This document shows, one piece after another, positions 29,995 through 40,148 of a DNA stretch of 64,000 nt. Within the stretch, counting starts at the first letter, position 1, and every line of letters starts with the position of its first letter. The DNA is from Marinobacter bohaiensis. Lineage in GTDB: Bacteria > Pseudomonadota > Gammaproteobacteria > Pseudomonadales > Oleiphilaceae. The position numbers were made by a program, and so were the translations under genes. The notes below the pieces were generated by a model, which made no database searches, was not told the DNA's origin, and saw only the letters and a program-made list of their open reading frames with translations. The DNA is taken from positions 2,170,001 to 2,234,000 of the forward strand of contig NZ_QGEH01000001.1 in NCBI RefSeq assembly GCF_003258515.1, in the 5' to 3' direction.

Positions 29995-30397
29995 GCGCGC
30001 TCCTGTCTCGGCTGGGGCAACCGTCAACGCTCGTTGCCTGACTGGAATGGAAAGGGTGACCGGCCCTTGGCGGGCAGTCGGCCATTCTAAACGATTCGTA
30101 AGCCATCGCGCACGGTTCCTGATCCCAACAGAGTACAGCGACAAGGCGTGCCGGGATGATACAAATCATGGATCTACGGGAAACCACGTACCCGGAGAGC
30201 GTAGTTCAGGACGCCGGTTCCAGTTATTGGCGATTTTTGAGGAGCTTTGGCGTCGAACGTTTGGCGTTTTTGTGCAAAGAATTGTGAAAAATACGCTTTT
30301 TCGGAAAAATTCCACGTTCGTGCAAGGATTGGCTTGATAAGGTCCGCTAAAAATGACGATGTCCGGGAAACGGAACGGCACAACCAGGCAGGACGGC
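29995..30397. other. Divergent intergenic region with no gene
   Basis: About 400 bases between the ABC exporter (minus) and the PilZ gene (plus). It holds the Anr-like palindrome at 30156-30169 and an A/T-rich run around 30255-30320 with T5 and A5 blocks that probably contains the promoter of the PilZ gene; no clean -35/-10 pair could be fixed. I see no coding potential beyond the 5' extensions of the two flanking frames. Confidence 0.5.
30156..30169. promoter_or_regulatory. Anr/FNR-like palindrome
   Basis: ATGATACAAATCAT is a 14-base sequence with two inverted 5-base arms. It matches the FNR/Anr core TGAT-N4-ATCA exactly, differs from the full consensus only at the outer base of each arm, and has the same ACAA spacer as the perfect box at cydA. 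On the minus strand TACTCT (30135-30130) would place a start near 30123, putting the box about 40 bases upstream, suitable for activating the ABC exporter/DUF192 operon. Confidence 0.45.
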
Positions 30398-30775
30398 ATG
30401 ACCGAACGACGACGGCGAGAACGGCTTCCTTTTATCCGGATGGGTGCGCGCATCCGGGTGCGTCGACACCTGTTTACCAACCGTTGGCTGGACGTCGCCG
30501 TGCGTGATTTCAGTCGCATGGGGATGGCCATCATTGCGGAACAGGAATTCGAGGAAGGAGACATCATCCAGTTCAGCCTGCGGCTGGATACGGAAGTGGG
30601 CGACATCACCGTGAAGCAGGCGTTGGGTGTGGTGCGCAACGCCCGGGTGGACGACGAAGGCACGATCTACGGCATCGAGTTTGCCGGCGACCAGCGCCCC
30701 TCGGTCACGGAGTCCCTGTCCCGCATCGAAAGCGTGTTGTCTCGGTTCCGCGCCGTCTCCGAACGCATGCGCTGA
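30398..30775 (+). CDS. PilZ domain protein
   Basis: A 125-residue stand-alone PilZ protein, predicted to bind cyclic di-GMP and act as a cytoplasmic effector. Both ligand-binding motifs are intact: an Arg-rich RxxxR region at the N-terminus (RRRRERLPFIR) and the DFSRMG motif of type (D/N)xSxxG about 40 residues on, followed by beta strands GDIIQFSLRL and ALGVVRNARVDD. The C-terminus is an amphipathic helix (SLSRIESVLSRFRAVSERMR). The chosen ATG at 30398 has AGGA close upstream; an in-frame ATG at 30353 would add 15 non-conserved residues and remains possible. No enzyme gene for cyclic di-GMP is nearby. Confidence 0.85.
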   Translation: MTERRRRERLPFIRMGARIRVRRHLFTNRWLDVAVRDFSRMGMAIIAEQEFEEGDIIQFSLRLDTEVGDITVKQALGVVRNARVDDEGTIYGIEFAGDQRPSVTESLSRIESVLSRFRAVSERMR

Positions 30776-30888
30776 TCCGCGCTGCCGCAGCGGAAGCTTT
30801 GACCGCCGTAGCCAGGCCCCGTTTTTTCGGCGAAAATGCCCGCCCAATGGGTCGATGCCGATCATCGCGTCGCCGTGAATCTGTCGAG

Positions 30889-31377
30889 ATGGGGAGTCTC
30901 ATTGCCGTGCTGCGGGCTTTACTGGTTATTATCATTATTGTTGGGGCGGTGAGCCTGATGGTGTTCGGGCCGCAGTATCTGCGGACGCTGCAATCCGAGC
31001 CCGCCGCATCGGCACAAGACACGGCGGCCGATGTCTGCGACCTGTCGGGCGGGCCGTGCCAGTGGTCCGGCTCCGGTGACGGCTGGCAGGTCAGCCTCGA
31101 ACGCCGCAATCCGGATGCCCCCGAACAGCTGGCGCTGCGCGTGAAGGCTCCGGCTGACGCCTTGCCCGAGGGAGCGCTGGTCGCGGTGTTGTCCGGTCAC
31201 AGCATGTACATGGGGGAATACCCGGTGCCGCTGCAAGCCAATGGCGGTGCCTACGTCGCTGAGTTCGAAGCGCCCCTGTGCAGCCAGGACCCGGACATGG
31301 CCTGGACGCTCGCGCTCCAGTCCGGCCAGCAAGCTCTGCCCCTGCCAATGAATCCCGTCTTCCGGACCCGCCACTGA
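30889..31377 (+). CDS. Hypothetical membrane-anchored protein
   Basis: A 162-residue protein with one N-terminal transmembrane helix (about residues 5-25, AVLRALLVIIIIVGAVSLMV) and a periplasmic domain that has several Cys (VCDLSGGPC and PLCSQD) and beta-rich segments such as GWQVSLERR and ALVAVLSGHSMYMGEYPVPL. I do not recognise the family. The frame is open from 30799, but the ATG at 30889 starts directly before the membrane helix; its ribosome site is weak. It follows the PilZ gene by 113 bases on the same strand and converges with the fused permease gene. Confidence 0.7.
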   Translation: MGSLIAVLRALLVIIIIVGAVSLMVFGPQYLRTLQSEPAASAQDTAADVCDLSGGPCQWSGSGDGWQVSLERRNPDAPEQLALRVKAPADALPEGALVAVLSGHSMYMGEYPVPLQANGGAYVAEFEAPLCSQDPDMAWTLALQSGQQALPLPMNPVFRTRH

Positions 31378-31398: not shown

Positions 31399-32874
31399 TC
31401 AATGGCCTTCGCAGGTGAGTGACACCCTCAGCTTGAGATAACGCCGCACCCGGCGGGAAATGCCGTCGATGCCGATGTTGAGGGCCGCCGTCACCAGAAT
31501 CAGGAGCAGGGCCTTGTCGAACTGGATGTTCTGGATGGCGCTGTCCACATAGAATCCGAGGGTGTAGATCCCCAGGATGCCGAGAATGGCGGTCTCGCGC
31601 ATGATGATTTCCCAGCGATAGAACAGGAACGCCAGAAACGGGCTGTACAGCCGCGGCAGCAATTCGTAGCCGTAACGCTCGAGGCCTTGGGGCGCGTCCG
31701 GGCGCAGGGTCAGTTCATTGCTGCGCCGGCCGATCAGGTGGCCGATGATGCCGCCGTTGTGGATCGCCAGCGCCACGATCGCCGGTAGCATGGACGGTCC
31801 CCACAGCTGCAGCAGGATGTACGCCAGCATGTATTCCGGCGTGGAACGGGCGATCACCAGCAACACGTGGCCGAAGCCGCGCCGGATGGGCCCGCCGAAG
31901 TGATTCGAGATCAGCGGGAAGGCGAGCAGCGTGACAATCCCGGTCAGCGCCAGCGCCACCTGGGTCAGTATCAGCGTGTGCCAGATCCCGGGCAGCGCCT
32001 GGTCGATGGCCAGATCCGATAGCCACTGGCCGAATGCGGCCATTCCGTCACCGTCACGCAACGGGGACGGCACGATGTCCTGGGTGAAGAAGCGCACCAC
32101 GTTGCCCCAGACGATGGGCAGTCCGTCGCCCAGGAAGAACGGGGCGGCGATCACGTAGAGCGGAATCAGTCGCGGCCGCGCCCAGAGCCGCAGCGAGGCA
32201 ATCAGCACGTAGAACAGCAGGAGCAGGGCGCCAACTTCGGAGTAGTACCCCTGGGAGAACGAGGATTCCAGGTAGTAGCCCAGCGTGGGCAGCCCGACGA
32301 AGCCCAGCACCGCACTGGAACGCAGGCCGCACTCCAGCCGGTAGGAGGTGTAGCTGATCAGGTGCGGCAGGGCGTCGGGAATCCGTGCATAGACAAAGGC
32401 GGACAGGGCGTTCACGCCGCGTGGCAGAACCTTGTGCGGGGTTGGGTCCGTCTCGTCCAGGATCTCTGAGTAGACCTTGGCGAAGATGCCGGCGTAGGGA
32501 ATGGCGATGGCCAGCACGCCGGTGAGCGGGTGGAACCCGAAGAACTGCAGAAAAATCAGTGCCCAGAAAAGTTCGTGAATCGCGCGGATGAAGGCGCAGA
32601 AGACGCGCACGGTGCGAAAGCGGAAGGCCAGCGCCAGCGCGAAACCCGCCACACTGCCCAGGGCTACGCCGGTAAAGGCAAAGGCCAGGGTGCGCAGCAA
32701 GGCGGTGCCAATGGCCTCAAGGGAGAAGAAATCCGGCGTGACGATGCCGAAGAACAAGTGCGCCAGATCTTCCCATGGATTGACCGTGGTGATTGCCAGG
32801 TCGGCAGCAAACAGGCACAGGATCGCGACGGCGAGGAACGCGAGGGTGATTCTGACGGAAGGCGCCCGCAACAT
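31399..32874 (-). CDS. Fused double PhnE-like ABC permease
   Basis: A 491-residue inner-membrane protein made of two PhnE-like permease domains in one chain, roughly 1-245 and 260-491, each with about six transmembrane segments. In each half an EAA-like loop is seen (GLRSSAVLGFVGLPTLGYYL in the first; IMRETAILGILGIYTLGFYV in the second), where the Gly-rich core contacts the ATPase. Most phosphonate-type systems use a single PhnE that dimerises, so this fusion supplies both halves. It starts 13 bases after the ATPase gene and is the last gene of the SelD-linked transporter. I infer a selenium oxyanion as cargo from the neighbourhood; phosphonate or phosphite remain possible. Confidence 0.88.
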   Translation of the reverse strand: MLRAPSVRITLAFLAVAILCLFAADLAITTVNPWEDLAHLFFGIVTPDFFSLEAIGTALLRTLAFAFTGVALGSVAGFALALAFRFRTVRVFCAFIRAIHELFWALIFLQFFGFHPLTGVLAIAIPYAGIFAKVYSEILDETDPTPHKVLPRGVNALSAFVYARIPDALPHLISYTSYRLECGLRSSAVLGFVGLPTLGYYLESSFSQGYYSEVGALLLLFYVLIASLRLWARPRLIPLYVIAAPFFLGDGLPIVWGNVVRFFTQDIVPSPLRDGDGMAAFGQWLSDLAIDQALPGIWHTLILTQVALALTGIVTLLAFPLISNHFGGPIRRGFGHVLLVIARSTPEYMLAYILLQLWGPSMLPAIVALAIHNGGIIGHLIGRRSNELTLRPDAPQGLERYGYELLPRLYSPFLAFLFYRWEIIMRETAILGILGIYTLGFYVDSAIQNIQFDKALLLILVTAALNIGIDGISRRVRRYLKLRVSLTCEGH

Positions 32875-32887
32875 ATCCGTTGAACGA

Positions 32888-33538
32888 TCAGTAAAGCGGG
32901 AGGATGTCGCCGGCGCTGAGCCGGTCGCTGGCGTCGTCCAGCACGATCTGGCCGCCTTGCAGGCCGACGATGCGATTACAGTAGCGCAGCGCCAGGTCGA
33001 TGTCGTGCAGGGCGATGACGCTGGTGGGGTAATGCTCGGTCATGCAGCCCATGACCACGTGCGCCAGCGGGCCATCGAGGGCGGATACCGGCTCGTCGGC
33101 CAACAGGATGTCCGACTGCTGGTACAGCGCCCGGGCCACCGCGGTGCGCTGCTTCTGGCCACCGGAGAGGGCTTCGACCGGTGATTTGAGCTTGTCGGCC
33201 ATACCCAGCTTGTCCAGCAGCGGCTCGATCTGCGCCACTTCGGCCGAGCGCGGCCAGACCAGGTTCATCAGGTTGTACCAGCGCGAGTGGCGGTTCAGCC
33301 GCCCCATGTAGACGTTATGGAAAACGGACAGGGACTGCACCAGCCCCTGTTCCTGCGGCACCAGCGCGGCGCGGTCGCGGACCTGCTCGTACAGCAGATT
33401 GAGCAGGGTCGACTTGCCCACCCCGCTGCCACCGACCAGGGCGACGTGTTCGCCCGGCCGGAGGTCCAGCGAGATGGGGCCGAGAACCTGGCGTCCGCCA
33501 TAGGCGGCGCTCAGGTTGCGCAGGTGCACGGCATCCAT
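32888..33538 (-). CDS. PhnC-like ABC transporter ATP-binding protein
   Basis: A 216-residue importer ATPase. Seen: Walker A GGSGVGKS at residues 36-43, Q-loop LVPQEQGLVQ, signature LSGGQKQRTAVARAL, Walker B ILLADEPVSALD and switch His in IALHDIDLAL. It is closest in style to PhnC. The ATG shares its T with the first base of the stop codon of the binding-protein gene (TAATG arrangement), so the two are translationally coupled. It would energise the fused permease downstream. Confidence 0.92.
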   Translation of the reverse strand: MDAVHLRNLSAAYGGRQVLGPISLDLRPGEHVALVGGSGVGKSTLLNLLYEQVRDRAALVPQEQGLVQSLSVFHNVYMGRLNRHSRWYNLMNLVWPRSAEVAQIEPLLDKLGMADKLKSPVEALSGGQKQRTAVARALYQQSDILLADEPVSALDGPLAHVVMGCMTEHYPTSVIALHDIDLALRYCNRIVGLQGGQIVLDDASDRLSAGDILPLY

Positions 33539-34395
33539 TAGTCGATGATGCCGATCTTCTCGGCGGTGGCGCGGATGGAGTCGTAATCCGCGTTGCTGGC
33601 CGGGATGAACGCCGAGCGCGGGAACTTGTTGAGCAGCTCCGGATCGTCCATGTTGACCAGCGCTTCCTGAACCCGCGCCTGGAAGCCATCACCGAAGCGC
33701 TCGTTGACGTCGCCGCGGATGGTCCACTGGTAATCCTGGTAGTGCGGGGTTTCCCAGATCACGTGGACGGCGTCGGTATCGATCTTGCCCGCTTCCAGCT
33801 CGCTTTCCCACACGGAGTAGTTCACCGCGCCCACCTGGTAGGTCCCGGACTCGACCAGGCGAATGGTGCGTGAATGATTGCCGCTGAAGCCGACGCGGCT
33901 GAACACATCTTCCGGCGCTTCGCCGAAGGCCTCACGAATGTAGTATTCCGGCATCAGGCGGCCGGACGTGGAGCCCTTGGAACCGAAGGTGAAGGTCTTG
34001 TCCTCGATGGCGGACGGGAAGTCATCGGACTTCTCCAGGCCGGTGCTCTCGTGGGCAATGAAGTAGGTGACGAACTGGGTGTCTTCCTGACCCTGGGCGA
34101 TGGCTTCGGAGCCGGGCACCAGCGCGCGTGCCTGGACGCCGGACAGACCGCCGAACCACGCCAGCTGCACCTGGTTGTTGCGGAACGCGGATACCGCCGC
34201 GGCGTAGCTCTTGACCGGCACGTAGCGCACGTCCACGTCCAGCTGCTCCGACAGGTAGTCCGCCACGCTCTGGAAGCGTTCGCGCAGCTTGGTTTCGTCG
34301 TTGTCCGGAATCGCCGTAAAGACAAACGTGTCGGCCATCACCGGCGCCACCAGGGCCGCCGACAGCAGCAGGGCGCGTCGAATCTGTTTCAGCAT
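33538..34395 (-). CDS. PhnD-like periplasmic binding protein, putative selenium-oxyanion ABC transporter
   Basis: A 285-residue exported protein with a Sec signal peptide (LLLSAALVAPVMA, cleavage near residue 21) and a PhnD-like fold: FTAIPDNDETKLRERF at the mature N-terminus, YVPVKSYAAAVSAFRNNQVQLAWFG, FGSKGSTSGRLMPEYY (the oxyanion-contacting Ser/Thr loop) and VGAVNYSVWE. It is 135 bases downstream of the selD fusion on the same strand. A recognised PhnD-like subfamily encoded beside selD is annotated as a putative selenate-binding protein, which is the basis of the call. The ATG at 34395 follows GGAGA; an upstream frame to 34476 is not needed. Confidence 0.85.
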   Translation of the reverse strand: MLKQIRRALLLSAALVAPVMADTFVFTAIPDNDETKLRERFQSVADYLSEQLDVDVRYVPVKSYAAAVSAFRNNQVQLAWFGGLSGVQARALVPGSEAIAQGQEDTQFVTYFIAHESTGLEKSDDFPSAIEDKTFTFGSKGSTSGRLMPEYYIREAFGEAPEDVFSRVGFSGNHSRTIRLVESGTYQVGAVNYSVWESELEAGKIDTDAVHVIWETPHYQDYQWTIRGDVNERFGDGFQARVQEALVNMDDPELLNKFPRSAFIPASNADYDSIRATAEKIGIID

Positions 34396-34530
34396 CAGCA
34401 AGTCTCCGTTGTTTTCATTGAGCCGTTCCACGGCGCTGGAATCGTCGGGCGGTTCCCCGGCCAGAGATTGGCGCAAGAATACCGCCTATAGGTTGCTAAA
34501 TGAAGCCGGGCGGGCAGGCGACTCCGCGCC

Positions 34531-36807
34531 TCAAGCGCTGGCCACGAGCCCCACCGGCGCCAGGTCGTCGCCGGATTCGGTCACCGTGCCGATGATCGCG
34601 GCCTGCGGGTAGCCCCGTTCGCGCAGGGCTTCGACGCAGGCCTCCGCCTGGTCAGCCGGTACGCCAGCCAGCAGCCCGCCGGCTGTCTGGGGGTCGAACA
34701 GGATCGGGTAGCGCGGGTGTGCGGCCATTGCCTGCTGGTTCCGGAGCGCGCGCCGCAGTCGCACGTTGGCCGGTTGCAGGGAGCTGAGGATGCCCTCGGC
34801 GAGCGTCTCTTCCGCACCGTCCAGTAGCGGCAGGGCGGACAGGTCCAGTGTGACGTCCACGCCCGACGGCCGGGTCATCTCCACCAGGTGGCCCAGCAGG
34901 CCGAAACCGGTCACGTCGGTGCAGGCGTGGGCGCCGTGTTCGATGAGGCATCGCGCGCCGCGCTGGTTGGACAGCTGCATCTGCTCAAGGGCGTTATCGA
35001 TCCACCGGCCCCGGGTCTTCAGGCGCGGGTAAGCCGCAAACAGCGTTCCGGTACCGAGCGGTTTGGTGAGGATCAGCGCGTCGCCCGGGCGCAGCCCGTC
35101 CTTGCGCAGCGCCTGTGCCGGATCCACCAGGCCGTTCACGGCAAAACCCAGCGCCAGCTCACGCCCTTCGCCGGTGTGGCCGCCGACCAGGGCGCAGCCC
35201 GCCGCGTTCAGCACATCCACCGCACCGCTCATCATCTGGTAAACCAGCTCTTCCACCTTGGACTCCACGCCGCTGGGCACGGTGGCGACGGCCGTGGCGG
35301 TCTGCGCATCGGCGCCCATGGCGAAAATATCGCCGAGGCTGTGGTTGGCGGCGATGCGGCCAAACACATAGGGGTCGTCGACGAACGCCCGGAAGAAATC
35401 GATGGTCTGGACGCTGGCCTTGCCGGGCGGTACCGCGACGATGGCGGCGTCGTCCGGCGAGTGTAGGCCGACCAGGACATCGTCGCGATCCACCGGCCGA
35501 ATCCTGTCCAGCGCGCGGGACAGGACGGTGCTGCCCACCTTGGCGCCGCAGCCGCCGCAGCGCATGGCCACCGCCGAGATGGCCTGGGCCGCGTCTTCCT
35601 CGCTGGCCGCCGCCCGGGTGTCCGCCGCACCGGATTCTTCCGCCATCGCCGGCAGGTCGTTGAATCGGGCCATGAACGTGCGGTCGATACGATCCTTCCA
35701 ACGCCAGACCCAGCGCCCCGCCAGGCTGACGTTGCCGCGGGAGGCGATCGCGTACTGATCGCCGGTGCTGATCAACGCCAGCCAGCGTGCCTGCGGCCGG
35801 AAGGGTCGCAACGGCTCGCCGAGGGCGGCGCGGGCCAGGTTGCGCGCCAACGGCATGCCCTGGCGCACCGCGAAGACGCCGGCTTTTTCCCGGGGGTAGT
35901 GGGTCATGTCGGCGATGTCGCCGGCGGCGAAGATGCGATCGTCGGATTCGGTCTGGAGCGTGTCGCGGGTCCGAATGAAGCCGTCATTGTTCAAAGCCAG
36001 CCCGGTGCTAGCCAGCCATGCGGGACCGCCGGCCTGGGTGACCCAGAGGGTTTCGTCCACCGCCTGGGACGAACCGCCGGCGGTGTGCAACTGACTGGCG
36101 GAGACGCGCACAACCGGGTCGCCGAAGTGGCACTGGATCTGGCGATCGTCCAGCACGTCAGCCATGCGCTGGCGCACTCGACGGTTGTGGGTCGGCAGCA
36201 GGGTGGATTCGGCGTCGAACAGATGGAACTGGAGCTGCCGCGGGTCCTTGCCCTGGGCCCGTAACTCGTTGCGCAGCCGGTACTGCAGCGCCAGCATCAG
36301 CTCGACGCCGCCGGCGCCCGCTCCGACGACGGCGATACTCATCGGCCCGCGGTGCTGCCGGACGCGTTCAAGCAGAGCCAGCCAGCGAGCGTTGAAATCC
36401 CGGATCGGCTTGACCGGCAGCGCGTGCTGGTCGGCGCCCTCCACATCCGCCAGACGGGGCGCGGAACCGATGTTGATTGACAGTAGGTCGTAGGCCACCG
36501 GTGGGCGGTTGCGGCACAGGACCCGCTGTGAATCCCGATCGATGCCGACGGCTTCGTCGTGGAAAAAGCGCGCCCCGGCAAACTCGGCCAGACGCCGCAG
36601 GTCGATGTGGACCTCATCGTAGCTGTAGTGGCCCGCCACATAGCCGGGCAGCATGCCGGAATAGGGCGTGTGGGTGTCGCGCGCAATCAGCGTGAGGCGC
36701 ACGCCCGGCACCGGTTTCATCGCGAAGCGTTTGAGCACGCCAACATGGCTGTGGCCGCCGCCGACCAGGACGATATCGCGCAGGACGGGTTGTTCGGGCG
36801 TTTGCAT
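34531..36807 (-). CDS. selD: FAD-dependent oxidoreductase fused to selenophosphate synthase (SelD)
   Basis: A 758-residue two-domain protein. Residues 1 to about 380 form an NDH2-like pyridine nucleotide-disulfide oxidoreductase, with the FAD motif IVLVGGGHSHVGVLKRF, VVGAGAGGVELMLAL and the second FAD contact FAAGDIADM. Residues from about 410 to the end are SelD, which makes selenophosphate from selenide and ATP. The nucleophile region reads RCGGCGAKVG, with Cys420 and Lys423 aligning to Cys17 and Lys20 of E. coli SelD, followed by DDAAI, RIAANHSLGDIFAMGA and VGGHTGEG. No Sec codon is used. AAGGA precedes the ATG. The fusion suggests that electrons from NAD(P)H are used to keep or make selenide beside the synthase (inference). 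Downstream genes encode a PhnDCE-like importer. Confidence 0.93.
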   Translation of the reverse strand: MQTPEQPVLRDIVLVGGGHSHVGVLKRFAMKPVPGVRLTLIARDTHTPYSGMLPGYVAGHYSYDEVHIDLRRLAEFAGARFFHDEAVGIDRDSQRVLCRNRPPVAYDLLSINIGSAPRLADVEGADQHALPVKPIRDFNARWLALLERVRQHRGPMSIAVVGAGAGGVELMLALQYRLRNELRAQGKDPRQLQFHLFDAESTLLPTHNRRVRQRMADVLDDRQIQCHFGDPVVRVSASQLHTAGGSSQAVDETLWVTQAGGPAWLASTGLALNNDGFIRTRDTLQTESDDRIFAAGDIADMTHYPREKAGVFAVRQGMPLARNLARAALGEPLRPFRPQARWLALISTGDQYAIASRGNVSLAGRWVWRWKDRIDRTFMARFNDLPAMAEESGAADTRAAASEEDAAQAISAVAMRCGGCGAKVGSTVLSRALDRIRPVDRDDVLVGLHSPDDAAIVAVPPGKASVQTIDFFRAFVDDPYVFGRIAANHSLGDIFAMGADAQTATAVATVPSGVESKVEELVYQMMSGAVDVLNAAGCALVGGHTGEGRELALGFAVNGLVDPAQALRKDGLRPGDALILTKPLGTGTLFAAYPRLKTRGRWIDNALEQMQLSNQRGARCLIEHGAHACTDVTGFGLLGHLVEMTRPSGVDVTLDLSALPLLDGAEETLAEGILSSLQPANVRLRRALRNQQAMAAHPRYPILFDPQTAGGLLAGVPADQAEACVEALRERGYPQAAIIGTVTESGDDLAPVGLVASA

Positions 36808-36838
36808 CCGTGTTCCTTAACAGCTCGGGAGGCGACGT

Positions 36839-36867
36839 ATGATACGCGTTGCAGCGCCGGACGGCAG
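36839..36867 (-). promoter_or_regulatory. Possible promoter of selD
   Basis: On the minus strand TATCAT (36844-36839) is 17 bases from CTGCCG (36867-36862), ending 32 bases before the selD ATG. The -10 is good and the -35 is weak, so confidence is low. Confidence 0.35.
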
Positions 36868-36931
36868 CCGCCTGGCATGCCGGGCATAACACCGCACGTT
36901 CATGGACGCTGGAATAACCGGATCGAACAGG

Positions 36932-36951
36932 GGCGGCCCGGGCGGGCCGCC
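36932..36951 (-). terminator. GC-rich hairpin after the histone-like gene
   Basis: GGCGGCCCG and CGGGCCGCC form an almost loop-less nine-base inverted repeat 15 bases beyond the stop of the histone-like gene. No U-tract follows, so termination here is inferred from position only. Confidence 0.4.
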
Positions 36952-36965
36952 ACCAGGGAAGGGGA

Positions 36966-37676
36966 TCAGGCGAGCAGTTTCTTGGCCTCGGCCGACCAGC
37001 TGTCGTAGCCGCGCATGCTGGAGAACTGCTTCATCTTCTCCTTCTCGTCGGCGGAGGGCTCCGCGATCTGACGGATCGTGGTGATCCCCATCGCCTGCAT
37101 CTTCTTTGCCGTGGCCGGCCCGATGCCCTTGACCTTGGTGAGGTCGGTTTGACTCACCGCGTTGGTCTTGGCTGCCGCTGGCTTCTTCGCAGCCGGCGCT
37201 TTGGCTGAGGATTTGGCGGGGGCCTTGGAGGAAGGCTTGGCTGAAGACTTGGCGGGCGCCTTCTTGCTCGCGCTCTTCGCGGTCTTCCCGGAGCCGTTAC
37301 TGGCCTTCTTGGCGGTCTTGGCCTTGGCCGGAGTCGCTTGCTCGACCTTCTCGGATGCGGACTCGATGGCCTTGGTGGCACTCTTCTCGACTTCCTTGCT
37401 GGCCAGCCCGACCCGCTCAAGCAGGTGGTGCTGCAGATCGTGGAAGTCCTGCAGGCGACGGTCGAGTTCGTCGTTGAAGCGCTTCATCTCGCGCTCACGC
37501 AGTTTCTCGATTTCATCGAGTAGTTTCTTGATGGGTTCCTGGACCTGATTCTGCAGGGCGTCGAACTGCTTGAAAGCGTCGTTGATCAGTTTCTCGATCT
37601 GGTTGGAGGTCTTGTCGAATTCCTTGTTGACCTTCTTGACCAGCTTGTCCACACCGGCCTTTTCTTTCTTTGCCAT
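36966..37676 (-). CDS. Histone H1-like protein with coiled-coil N-terminus and helix-hairpin-helix tail
   Basis: A 236-residue, very basic protein in three parts. Residues 1-110 are helical with heptad character (FDKTSNQIEKLINDAFKQF, IKKLLDEIEKLREREMKRF), resembling phasin/PhaF-like segments. Residues 112-175 are a Lys/Ala/Pro-rich histone H1-like linker with repeated APAKSSAK and KKAP units. Residues 178-236 contain a helix-hairpin-helix-like domain (LTKVKGIGPATAKKMQAMG) followed by IRQIAEPSADEKEKM. This points to a nucleoid-associated or granule-and-DNA-bridging protein, as for PhaF and AlgP-type proteins (inference). A potential ribosome site (GGGGAA) lies before the ATG. No PHA synthesis gene is in the window. 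Confidence 0.85.
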   Translation of the reverse strand: MAKKEKAGVDKLVKKVNKEFDKTSNQIEKLINDAFKQFDALQNQVQEPIKKLLDEIEKLREREMKRFNDELDRRLQDFHDLQHHLLERVGLASKEVEKSATKAIESASEKVEQATPAKAKTAKKASNGSGKTAKSASKKAPAKSSAKPSSKAPAKSSAKAPAAKKPAAAKTNAVSQTDLTKVKGIGPATAKKMQAMGITTIRQIAEPSADEKEKMKQFSSMRGYDSWSAEAKKLLA

Positions 37677-38621: not shown

Positions 38622-40148
38622 CTAATCGTCGTTCATACCCACGCTGTACATGTCGGTACGGCGGTCTTTCAGGTTGGTGACGGAGCCTTCGTTGCGGACC
38701 AGTTTGAGCTTCTCCAGGTCCATGTCCGAGAACATGATCATCTCGGTGTTGGGCGTGGTCTCCGCCATCACCGCATCGTGCGGGAAGGCAAAGTCCGACG
38801 GCGAGAACACGGACGACTGGGCGTACTGGACGTCCAGGTTCTCGACCTTGGGCAGGTTGCCGACGCTGCCGGTGATCACCACGTAGCACTCGTTCTCGAT
38901 CGCACGGGCCTGGCCACAGTGGCGGACGCGCAGGTAGCCGTTCTTGGTGTCGGTCCAGAAGGGCACGCAGATGATGTCCACGTCCTGACTGGCGGCGATC
39001 CGCCCCAGCTCCGGGAACTCGATGTCGTAGCAGATCATGATGGCCACGCGCCCAGCGTCGGTATCGAACACCTGGAACTGGTTGCCGCCTTCGATGACCC
39101 AGTCGCGACGCTCGTGGGGCGTGATGTGGATCTTGCGCTGCTCGTCGACGCGCCCGTCCCGGTGACACAGGTAGGACACGTTATAGAGACGGTCGTTATC
39201 GAGCAGCGGCATGGAGCCGGTGATGATGTTGATGTTGTAGCTGACCGCCATCTCCGACATCTGGTCACGGAACTGTTCGGTGAATCCGGCCAGGAAACGA
39301 ATCGCGCGGGTCTGGTCCAACTGGTCTGTCAGGCCCATCAGCGGCGCGTTGAAGAATTCCGGGAACAGGGCGAAGTCACTCTTGTAGTCGGACAGCGCGT
39401 CGACAAAGTACTCCACCTGCTTGAGCACTTCCTCCACGGAGGTGAACTCCCGCATCTGCCATTGCACGGCACCCATCCGCACCTGGGTCTTGCGCGTCTG
39501 CAGCACCGGCTGCGGCGGCGTGAACAGGATGTTGTTCCACTCGAGGAGCGTTGCGTAACCCATTGATTTTTCGTCCTCCGGCAGATACTTGTGCATCAAC
39601 CGGGTGACCTGGAAATCGTTTGACAGCTGGAAGGTGAGGATCGGATCGTAGATCTCCTTGCGGTCCACGCGCTCGATGTATTCGGCCGGCGTGAACTGGT
39701 CGGAGAACTTGTGGTAATTGGGGATGCGCCCGCCAGCGAGGATCGCGCGGAAGTTGCGCGACCGGCACAGTTCCTTGCGCGCTTCGTAGAGCCGGCGACC
39801 GAGCCGGTAGCCGCGATAGTCCGGGTGGATAAACACGTCGAGACCGTAGAGCGCATCGCCCTTGGCGTTATGGCGGATGCGTTCGTTCTTGAGGATCAGG
39901 TCGTCGTAGGTATGCGGGTTACTGAAGCGCTCGTAGTTGACGCACACGGTCAGGGCCACGGCGATCAACTCGCCACTGTCCTCGATGCAGATCTGGCCGT
40001 CCGGGAACTGTTCCACCAGCCCCTGGATCGTGTCCTCCGGCCAGGCCCCGCCGATGTCGTCGTAGATCAGATCCATCAGCCCCTTGAGCTGCGGATAGTC
40101 GTCTGGAGTCAGATTGCGAAGATTGAGGTGCAGTTCTTCGTGGGCCAT
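38622..40148 (-). CDS. GNAT acetyltransferase-nitrilase superfamily fusion
   Basis: A 508-residue two-domain protein. Residues 1 to about 210 form a GNAT-type N-acetyltransferase (FIHPDYRGYRLGRRLYEARKEL holds the acetyl-CoA loop). Residues 225-508 form a carbon-nitrogen hydrolase with the Glu-Lys-Cys triad: Glu in LFPEFF, Lys in EQRKIHITPHE and Cys in IMICYDIEFPELG. The two-domain arrangement is a known proteobacterial family whose substrate is not established; amide release from an acylated amine is plausible. The ATG start lies on a well conserved MAHEELHLNLRNL opening. It is transcribed away from MCP1, with about 235 bases between them. Confidence 0.9.
   Translation of the reverse strand: MAHEELHLNLRNLTPDDYPQLKGLMDLIYDDIGGAWPEDTIQGLVEQFPDGQICIEDSGELIAVALTVCVNYERFSNPHTYDDLILKNERIRHNAKGDALYGLDVFIHPDYRGYRLGRRLYEARKELCRSRNFRAILAGGRIPNYHKFSDQFTPAEYIERVDRKEIYDPILTFQLSNDFQVTRLMHKYLPEDEKSMGYATLLEWNNILFTPPQPVLQTRKTQVRMGAVQWQMREFTSVEEVLKQVEYFVDALSDYKSDFALFPEFFNAPLMGLTDQLDQTRAIRFLAGFTEQFRDQMSEMAVSYNINIITGSMPLLDNDRLYNVSYLCHRDGRVDEQRKIHITPHERRDWVIEGGNQFQVFDTDAGRVAIMICYDIEFPELGRIAASQDVDIICVPFWTDTKNGYLRVRHCGQARAIENECYVVITGSVGNLPKVENLDVQYAQSSVFSPSDFAFPHDAVMAETTPNTEMIMFSDMDLEKLKLVRNEGSVTNLKDRRTDMYSVGMNDD

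Follow-up and report, generated by a model that had tools for sequence, protein, structure and literature searches.

A probable selenium uptake and activation operon in Marinobacter bohaiensis and its kinship with the PhnD1 transporters of picocyanobacteria

The closest described systems to the one treated here are the PhnDCE phosphonate importers of the E. coli type, the PtxABC phosphite importers and the PhnD1C1E1 transporters of picocyanobacteria. A window of 64,000 nucleotides from Marinobacter bohaiensis (positions 2,170,001 to 2,234,000 of contig NZ_QGEH01000001.1, the whole stretch that was analysed) contains a comparable set of binding protein, ATP-binding cassette (ABC) ATPase and permease, preceded by a gene for a flavoprotein fused to SelD, the selenophosphate synthase. 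As judged from sequence comparisons, these four genes very probably constitute a dedicated selenium uptake and activation operon, with hydrogen selenite as the most likely cargo. It is also fairly probable that the importer is the missing dedicated high-affinity selenite importer of bacteria, and that picocyanobacterial PhnDCE1 is the same system, its phosphite binding mimicking that of hydrogen selenite. The proposed basis of this mimicry is the pyramidal three-oxygen shape, the one proton and the capped fourth face common to both anions.

Described relatives and the importer family

PhnD1 proteins of Synechococcus MITS9220 and Prochlorococcus MIT9301 are represented by the structures 7s6g and 5lq5 (PMC8786288, PMC10284923), and such proteins have already been purified and crystallised (PMC10284923, PMC5700983). 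In the Cyanorak database, phnD1 is reported for each of the 97 picocyanobacterial strains, most of which have no known genes for phosphite or phosphonate use, and neither compound supported growth of two tested strains (PMC10284923). The transporter genes were not upregulated by phosphate starvation, and PhnD1C1E1, with tesA as a conserved neighbour, was proposed to be a constitutive phosphate transporter of medium affinity (PMC10284923). Neither that paper nor the 2017 structural paper (PMC5700983) contains the stem "selen" in its main text.

On the selenium side, according to passages of a 2022 and a 2026 review (PMC9312934, PMC13188914), a (specific) high-affinity system for selenium transport is yet to be identified in prokaryotes. 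The former names YedE as a possible selenium-related transporter, likewise proposed from selenium-gene neighbourhoods (PMC9312934), and a 2016 survey mentions an ABC ATPase near selD in some organisms with an orphan SelD (PMC5029168). Literature searches yielded no report of an importer of the present kind, with the papers on selenoneine and ovoselenol biosynthesis outside their coverage, and no paper using the accession TIGR04553. Presumably, YedE is not an ABC importer of this kind. The selenium link of the importer family is an earlier prediction by the curators of TIGR04553, an NCBIfam hypothetical equivalog named "putative selenate ABC transporter substrate-binding protein". This name says selenate, whereas the present evidence favours selenite. 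Beyond that prediction, and within the reach of the literature searches, three findings seem to be new: that the importer is linked to clusters for selenoneine and selenouridine, that it coincides with mnmH across the cyanobacteria, and that picocyanobacterial PhnD1 belongs to TIGR04553.

The binding protein of the window matches TIGR04553 over residues 23-285 and the complete profile (1-266 of 266), with the general phosphonate model far behind at 158.6 bits. Its identification as PhnD proper (TIGR03431) was rejected at 130.6 bits, the cut-off being 261.1. The gene set is common to the window and the E. coli-type PhnDCE importers; however, the ATPase and permease of the window are below the PhnC and PhnE cut-offs, and the permease is fused. 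The closest solved proteins are the PhnD1 structures 7s6g (225.8 bits, 42% identity over 257 columns) and 5lq5 (203.7 bits), and PtxB reached 101.6 bits. Partial PhnD1 chains passed the TIGR04553 cut-off with 333.6 and 297.0 bits. The binding proteins of PtxABC importers (5o2j, 5jvb, 5lv1) share the fold family, the STS motif, the histidine and the capping tyrosine with the window protein, but the two tested proteins on that side, PtxB of P. stutzeri (165.0 bits) and Prochlorococcus PhnD2 (152.4 bits), were below the cut-off.

In a tree of 69 proteins, built by a quick method without bootstrap and drawn with the PtxB-type proteins as the far side, the importer family forms a branch separate from PtxB and PhnD2 (branch length 1.67; SH-aLRT 89, not starred). 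The cyanobacterial clade joins the clade of the window protein (SH-aLRT 98), and outside that pair stands a second proteobacterial clade, which includes SelD-linked proteins of three genomes (G407, G552, G557). PhnD1 thus appears bracketed by SelD-linked relatives, since these occur both in the clade of the window protein and in the outer clade.

Association of the importer with selenium genes

Among 151 genomes, 131 were above the cut-off, and the best 30 of these provided the family loci (L007-L036). The order binding protein-ATPase-permease is kept in all 30, and within the approximately 1.5 kb covered upstream, the end of a SelD gene was found in 25. Therefore, the array of four genes is no chance arrangement. 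In 20 family stretches of 19 kb, tblastn searches located SelD near the importer in 18, SenB in 11 and mnmH in 3. SenB is the selenosugar synthase of selenoneine biosynthesis. In 10 of the 11 stretches (L223-L231, L239) its gene separates the SelD fusion from the binding protein and runs on the opposite strand; the SenB query (L012:269-1252) scored 399.2 bits against TIGR04348 (cut-off 300). Three stretches of the same genus (L232-L234) display the arrangement of the window, without SenB at that place. The order mnmH-binding protein-ATPase-permease-SelD fusion is seen in L240 and L242, with the MnmH of L240 scoring 535.1 bits against NF008751 (cut-off 361), and in L241 both SelD and mnmH adjoin the importer. 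A SelD fusion, an OvoA-type methyltransferase (TIGR04345, 278.2 bits, cut-off 170), SenA (437.6 bits, cut-off 420), SenB (413.1 bits, cut-off 300) and the importer are brought together in L237 (7322-16173), probably what may be called an ovoselenol cluster with its own selenium supply.

Outside the family, 13 stretches (L198-L210) were considered, and SelD was near the importer in 5 of them. L202 (5450-13069) displays, in order, a SenA-like gene (379.4 bits, below 420), SelD, the binding protein, the ATPase, two permeases, EgtD (340.7 bits, cut-off 290.9) and SenB (374.2 bits), and can be read as a selenoneine-type operon enclosing the importer. In L204 an EgtD-like gene adjoins the binding protein, with SenA-like, SenB-like and SelD matches within about 9 kb (tblastn), and in L201 and L203 SelD and mnmH are divergent from the importer. 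Two copies of the binding protein stand beside SelD in G621, a genome with selA and no mnmH. A tandem pair of this description lies at about 7500-9345 of L200. The linked importer is tied to SelD whichever selenium product is made.

The association extends to genome content. In 349 Pseudomonadota genomes drawn over the phylum, limited candidates were scored per genome, leaving a few misses possible. The importer was above the TIGR04553 cut-off in 26 genomes bearing ten family labels, and SelD, mnmH and selA were above their cut-offs in 107, 92 and 42. SelD was present in 24 of the 26 importer genomes compared to 83 of the 323 others (Fisher 1.2e-11); the corresponding numbers were 23 and 69 for mnmH (6.6e-12), and 14 and 28 for selA (5.4e-8). 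Of the 24 genomes that have both, 9, under five family labels, place the binding protein and SelD no more than 10 kb apart. None of the 8 listed PhnD-like places below the cut-off is within this distance of SelD, 4 of these being in SelD genomes and 3 of the 4 on another contig. A role in selenium uptake and activation, already suspected in the sequence-only reading, is thus supported by the TIGR04553 match, by the co-occurrence with SelD and mnmH and by the relatives in selenium clusters.

In 175 cyanobacterial genomes drawn over the phylum, the search covered the importer and mnmH. The importer was found in 20, with a clear gap between the lowest member (298.0 bits) and the next protein (171.7 bits), and mnmH was above the cut-off in 23. 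Both occur in 20 genomes, the importer alone in none, mnmH alone in 3 (G285, G349, G326) and neither in 152 (Fisher 1.8e-23, relatedness not corrected). As separate observations, G285 (L221) has a sub-cut-off binding protein with an ATPase, a permease and a D-2-hydroxyacid-dehydrogenase-type gene adjoining, and an mnmH match in G319 (C1:1236013-1236921) carries one in-frame TGA, reflecting a pseudogene, a sequencing error or something else. Phosphite dehydrogenase is a member of the D-2-hydroxyacid-dehydrogenase type, and the G285 set may be a phosphite system.

For the picocyanobacteria, 80 loci were examined, 59 of which cover at least 6 kb downstream. Six of the 80, including five titled Cyanobium, have mnmH on the opposite strand at a distance of 2.4-4.5 kb downstream from the gene for the binding protein; none of the 80 loci yielded SelD. 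Of the 30 genomes searched, corresponding to 30 of these loci, 25 have mnmH above the cut-off. Four of the other five gave partial or weak mnmH matches and one gave none; all five are titled Prochlorococcus sp. AG-... and are taken as incomplete single-cell genomes.

In M. bohaiensis itself, mnmH, the tRNA 2-selenouridine synthase gene, is located on another contig (G000:C2:124366-125361; 343.1 bits, cut-off 219.75), and the genome thus has both mnmH and selD, the selenouridine (SeU) trait. The sequence-only reading had reported no selA, tRNA-Sec or mnmH in the window. This was borne out: ARAGORN found a single tRNA-Leu and no tRNA-Sec, tblastn found no mnmH there, and selA is unmatched in the window as in the whole genome. 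Selenocysteine as an end use was rejected on the lack of selA in the genome, selB and selC not having been searched genome-wide. In the window and in the other examined stretches of this genome, which were the extent of the search, tblastn matched neither SenB nor SenA. The end use, which had been left open, is now at least partly answered: since mnmH is present and selA absent, it would include at least selenouridine via MnmH.

Binding pocket, cargo and competing explanations

The predicted pocket of the window protein has the PhnD1 residues Asp11, Tyr44, Ser124-Thr125-Ser126, His156, Asn174, Asp203 and Tyr204 (MITS9220 numbering), and differs in Ser for Thr65 and Gly for Ser123. The ligand-contacting side chains are the same as in PhnD1, whose published role is nevertheless that of a phosphate transporter. 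In a comparison of 156 member rows (152 distinct sequences) and 8 non-members, Phe88 occurs in 156 of 156 members and Tyr88 in 8 of 8 non-members. Tyr204 is present in 155 of the 156 member rows, the exception being L191. At position 203, 133 members have Asp and 23 have Asn; of the non-members, 7 have Gln and 1 has Thr. The PtxB type of pocket has Tyr88 and Gln203, whereas the importer family has Phe88 with Asp or Asn203; the window protein itself carries Phe88 and Asp203.

According to Bisson et al., the tyrosine of PtxB has been lost to phenylalanine and an aspartate recruited, and the aspartate of Prochlorococcus PhnD1 suggests that the protonated phosphite monoanion is bound even at pH 8 (PMC5700983). 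In HtxB, ligand protonation can decide binding in a PhnD-like fold (PMC6629693). Within the family, Asp203 is positioned as an acceptor. Near pH 8, which is about its pKa, hydrogen selenite is an anion with one proton and three oxygens in a pyramidal arrangement; selenate is tetrahedral and without a proton at neutral pH. Because the pocket aspartate suits a protonated pyramidal anion, and given the HtxB precedent, we infer selenite rather than selenate as the ligand. Selenate is an unlikely cargo, although the NCBIfam name points to it and Asn203, where it occurs, would tolerate an unprotonated ligand. The PhnD1 data also speak against selenate: the crystal study excluded sulphate, its close shape twin, from the pocket; PhnD1 was stabilised only by phosphorus-source cocktails; and the affinity for pyramidal phosphite exceeded that for tetrahedral phosphate roughly 6- to 50-fold among four proteins from Synechococcus, and by more in Prochlorococcus (PMC10284923).

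The other two alternatives concern the element and its chemical form. A phosphite, phosphate or simple phosphonate importer could stand beside selD by chance, with the picocyanobacterial phosphate-transporter proposal being correct; the PhnDCE-like architecture and the in vitro affinity of PhnD1 for phosphite, phosphate and methylphosphonate (PMC10284923, PMC5700983) fit such an importer, as does tesA as the reported conserved neighbour in picocyanobacteria in place of a selenium gene (PMC10284923). This is nonetheless considered very improbable, as it would leave unexplained the SelD of 24 of 26 and the mnmH of 20 of 20 importer genomes, the repeated placing in selenouridine and selenoneine clusters, the distinct pocket, and the absent response to phosphorus starvation together with the failed growth on phosphite of two strains (PMC10284923). 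We therefore infer selenium as the element carried. Still less probable is an organic selenium compound, such as methylseleninate or a selenosugar, as the imported selenium source. Relatives are linked to senB and senA, and PhnD1 accepts a methyl group at R1 in methylphosphonate, but the small pocket of the importer family is capped by Tyr204, which was read in the PhnD1 structures as a steric barrier to bulky groups (PMC10284923). Moreover, a SelD-linked importer would be expected to feed SelD, which needs inorganic selenide.

Against a phosphorus cargo stands also the second, ordinary PhnDCE set of M. bohaiensis (L196:7001-10523; C1 about 191000-194520). Its binding protein (C1:193472-194245) reaches 89.5 bits against TIGR04553, below the cut-off, its PhnC 330.4 bits (cut-off 266.1), and its two separate PhnE proteins 271.8 and 279.2 bits (cut-off 216.7). 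Two overlapping Pho-box-like sites, with 2 and 3 mismatches, are located about 95-125 bp before the start codon of its binding-protein gene; since 2 sites in 19 kb compare with 1.0 expected, only their position speaks for them. Upstream of the window operon, near 36808-36965, a scan allowing up to 3 mismatches gave no such site, and across the whole window it gave 3 sites against 3.75 expected. Pho regulation of the window operon was accordingly rejected as a candidate. With Pho-box-like sites at the second set and none at the window operon, phosphorus and selenium seem to be imported separately in this genome. A hydrolase gene of the haloacid dehalogenase (HAD) type was additionally observed downstream of the second set. 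The sequence-only reading had listed a preference for phosphonate or phosphite and regulation by phosphate as signs against selenium. The first is touched by the phosphite binding of the nearest characterised relatives in vitro (PMC10284923, PMC5700983); the second was not seen, neither as an upstream Pho-box-like site nor in the picocyanobacterial relatives, which do not respond to phosphate starvation (PMC10284923).

Several observations weigh against a dedicated selenite importer. PhnD1 binds phosphite with a KD of 0.05-4.3 uM and phosphate with 7-182 uM (PMC10284923, PMC5700983). The Asn203 of 23 of the 156 rows weakens the protonation argument, and because these variants exist, the proton contact is not essential throughout the family. 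That Asp203 alone decides the ligand is likewise weakened, Asn203 being found in 7/31, 9/80, 2/20 and 5/25 rows of the four groups. The importer is without SelD nearby in 2 of 5 same-genus stretches (L235, L236), and 8 of the 13 outside-family stretches (L198, L199, L205-L210) show no SelD, MnmH or SenB near it. In 15 of the 24 Pseudomonadota genomes with both, the binding protein is more than 10 kb from SelD, 9 being far off on the same contig and 6 on another. The Fisher values for Pseudomonadota and cyanobacteria overstate the independent evidence, the genomes being related. Two importer-protein genomes, G494 and G613 (78% complete), have no SelD, mnmH or selA matches. The protein of G494 (L198:7999-9048) is an orphan, beside which no window-like ATPase or permease was found; it has Asn-Thr in place of Asp/Asn-Tyr at positions 203-204 and possibly a new role.

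If the four genes act as proposed, the binding protein would capture an oxyanion of selenium in the periplasm, hydrogen selenite being the likeliest, and the ATPase and double permease would transport it inward. It would next be reduced to selenide, possibly with the participation of the fused flavoprotein domain. From selenide and ATP the SelD domain would then form selenophosphate, and MnmH would use this to make 2-selenouridine in tRNA. On the same supposition, organisms that make selenouridine, selenoneine, ovoselenol or selenocysteine would obtain their selenium through one PhnD-like subfamily with a recognisable pocket. Selenite uptake by the PhnD1 system would extend to some of the most abundant marine phototrophs, and it would no longer be a paradox that cells without known phosphite use have a constitutive transporter which binds phosphite. 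Ocean surveys would also call for caution before phnD genes are equated with the use of phosphonates.

The SelD fusion and the gene layout

As had been read from the sequence at the outset, a flavoprotein-SelD fusion is followed by a complete importer on the same strand, and all four genes were found in that order and at those positions (Table 1). In the fusion, a Cys and a Lys align with the Cys and Lys of E. coli SelD, which we take to have active-site roles, and the TDVTGFGLLGH and DPQT stretches also line up with solved SelD (3u0o, 2yye). The best solved relative of the N-terminal domain is 4nwz (78.8 bits), indicating its likeness to flavoproteins of the type 2 NADH dehydrogenase (NDH-2), and all 18 fusions that were compared conserve Cys98. 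Identity with TIGR04369, "fusion_not_SelD", was rejected at 497.5 bits, below the cut-off of 700. The domain order is that of the cyanobacterial NADH oxidoreductase-SelD fusion (COG1252-SelD; PMC2432076, PMC1273633), and picocyanobacterial SelD has an NADH-dehydrogenase-like N-terminal extension (PMC1273633); linkage to an importer is, by contrast, the feature of the window. An N-terminal domain making the substrate of SelD was proposed in 2008 (PMC2432076), and that of the window would accordingly be a reductase supplying SelD.

Table 1. Positions of the four genes and their parts in the window
Feature	Position	Strand	Model evidence
Flavoprotein-SelD fusion, whole gene, 758 aa, predicted bifunctional	34531..36807	minus	family models
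N-terminal FAD/pyridine-nucleotide oxidoreductase domain, residues 11-382, NDH-2-like	35662..36777	minus	TIGR03169 "Nterm_to_SelD", 511.8 bits (cut-off 310)
SelD (selenophosphate synthase) domain, residues 415-720	34648..35565	minus	TIGR00476, 302.4 bits (cut-off 125)
Gap of 135 bp between selD and binding-protein gene; senB here, opposite strand, in many family relatives	34396..34530	minus	
Periplasmic binding protein, 285 aa, PhnD1-type pocket; proposed selenite binder	33538..34395	minus	TIGR04553, 418.9 bits (cut-off 250)
ABC ATPase, PhnC-like, 216 aa	32888..33538	minus	TIGR02315 (best model), 171.8 bits (cut-off 266.1); PF00005
Permease, 491 aa, two fused PhnE-like halves in one chain	31399..32874	minus	TIGR01097, two stretches, 214.3 bits (slightly below cut-off 216.7)

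A one-base overlap joins the genes of the binding protein and the ATPase, and 13 bases separate the ATPase gene from the permease gene. The N-terminus of the binding protein resembles a signal peptide by eye. The operon probably ends with the permease gene, because the next downstream frames, at 30799-31377 and a PilZ-domain gene at 30353-30775, face the opposite way on the plus strand. Promoter and terminator scans gave nothing above chance. On the minus strand 158 bp upstream of the fusion, the frame at 36966-37676 weakly resembles phasin and helix-hairpin-helix models, with scores below the cut-offs. Further upstream, at 38622-40148 on the same strand, a GNAT acetyltransferase is fused to a nitrilase-type carbon-nitrogen hydrolase.

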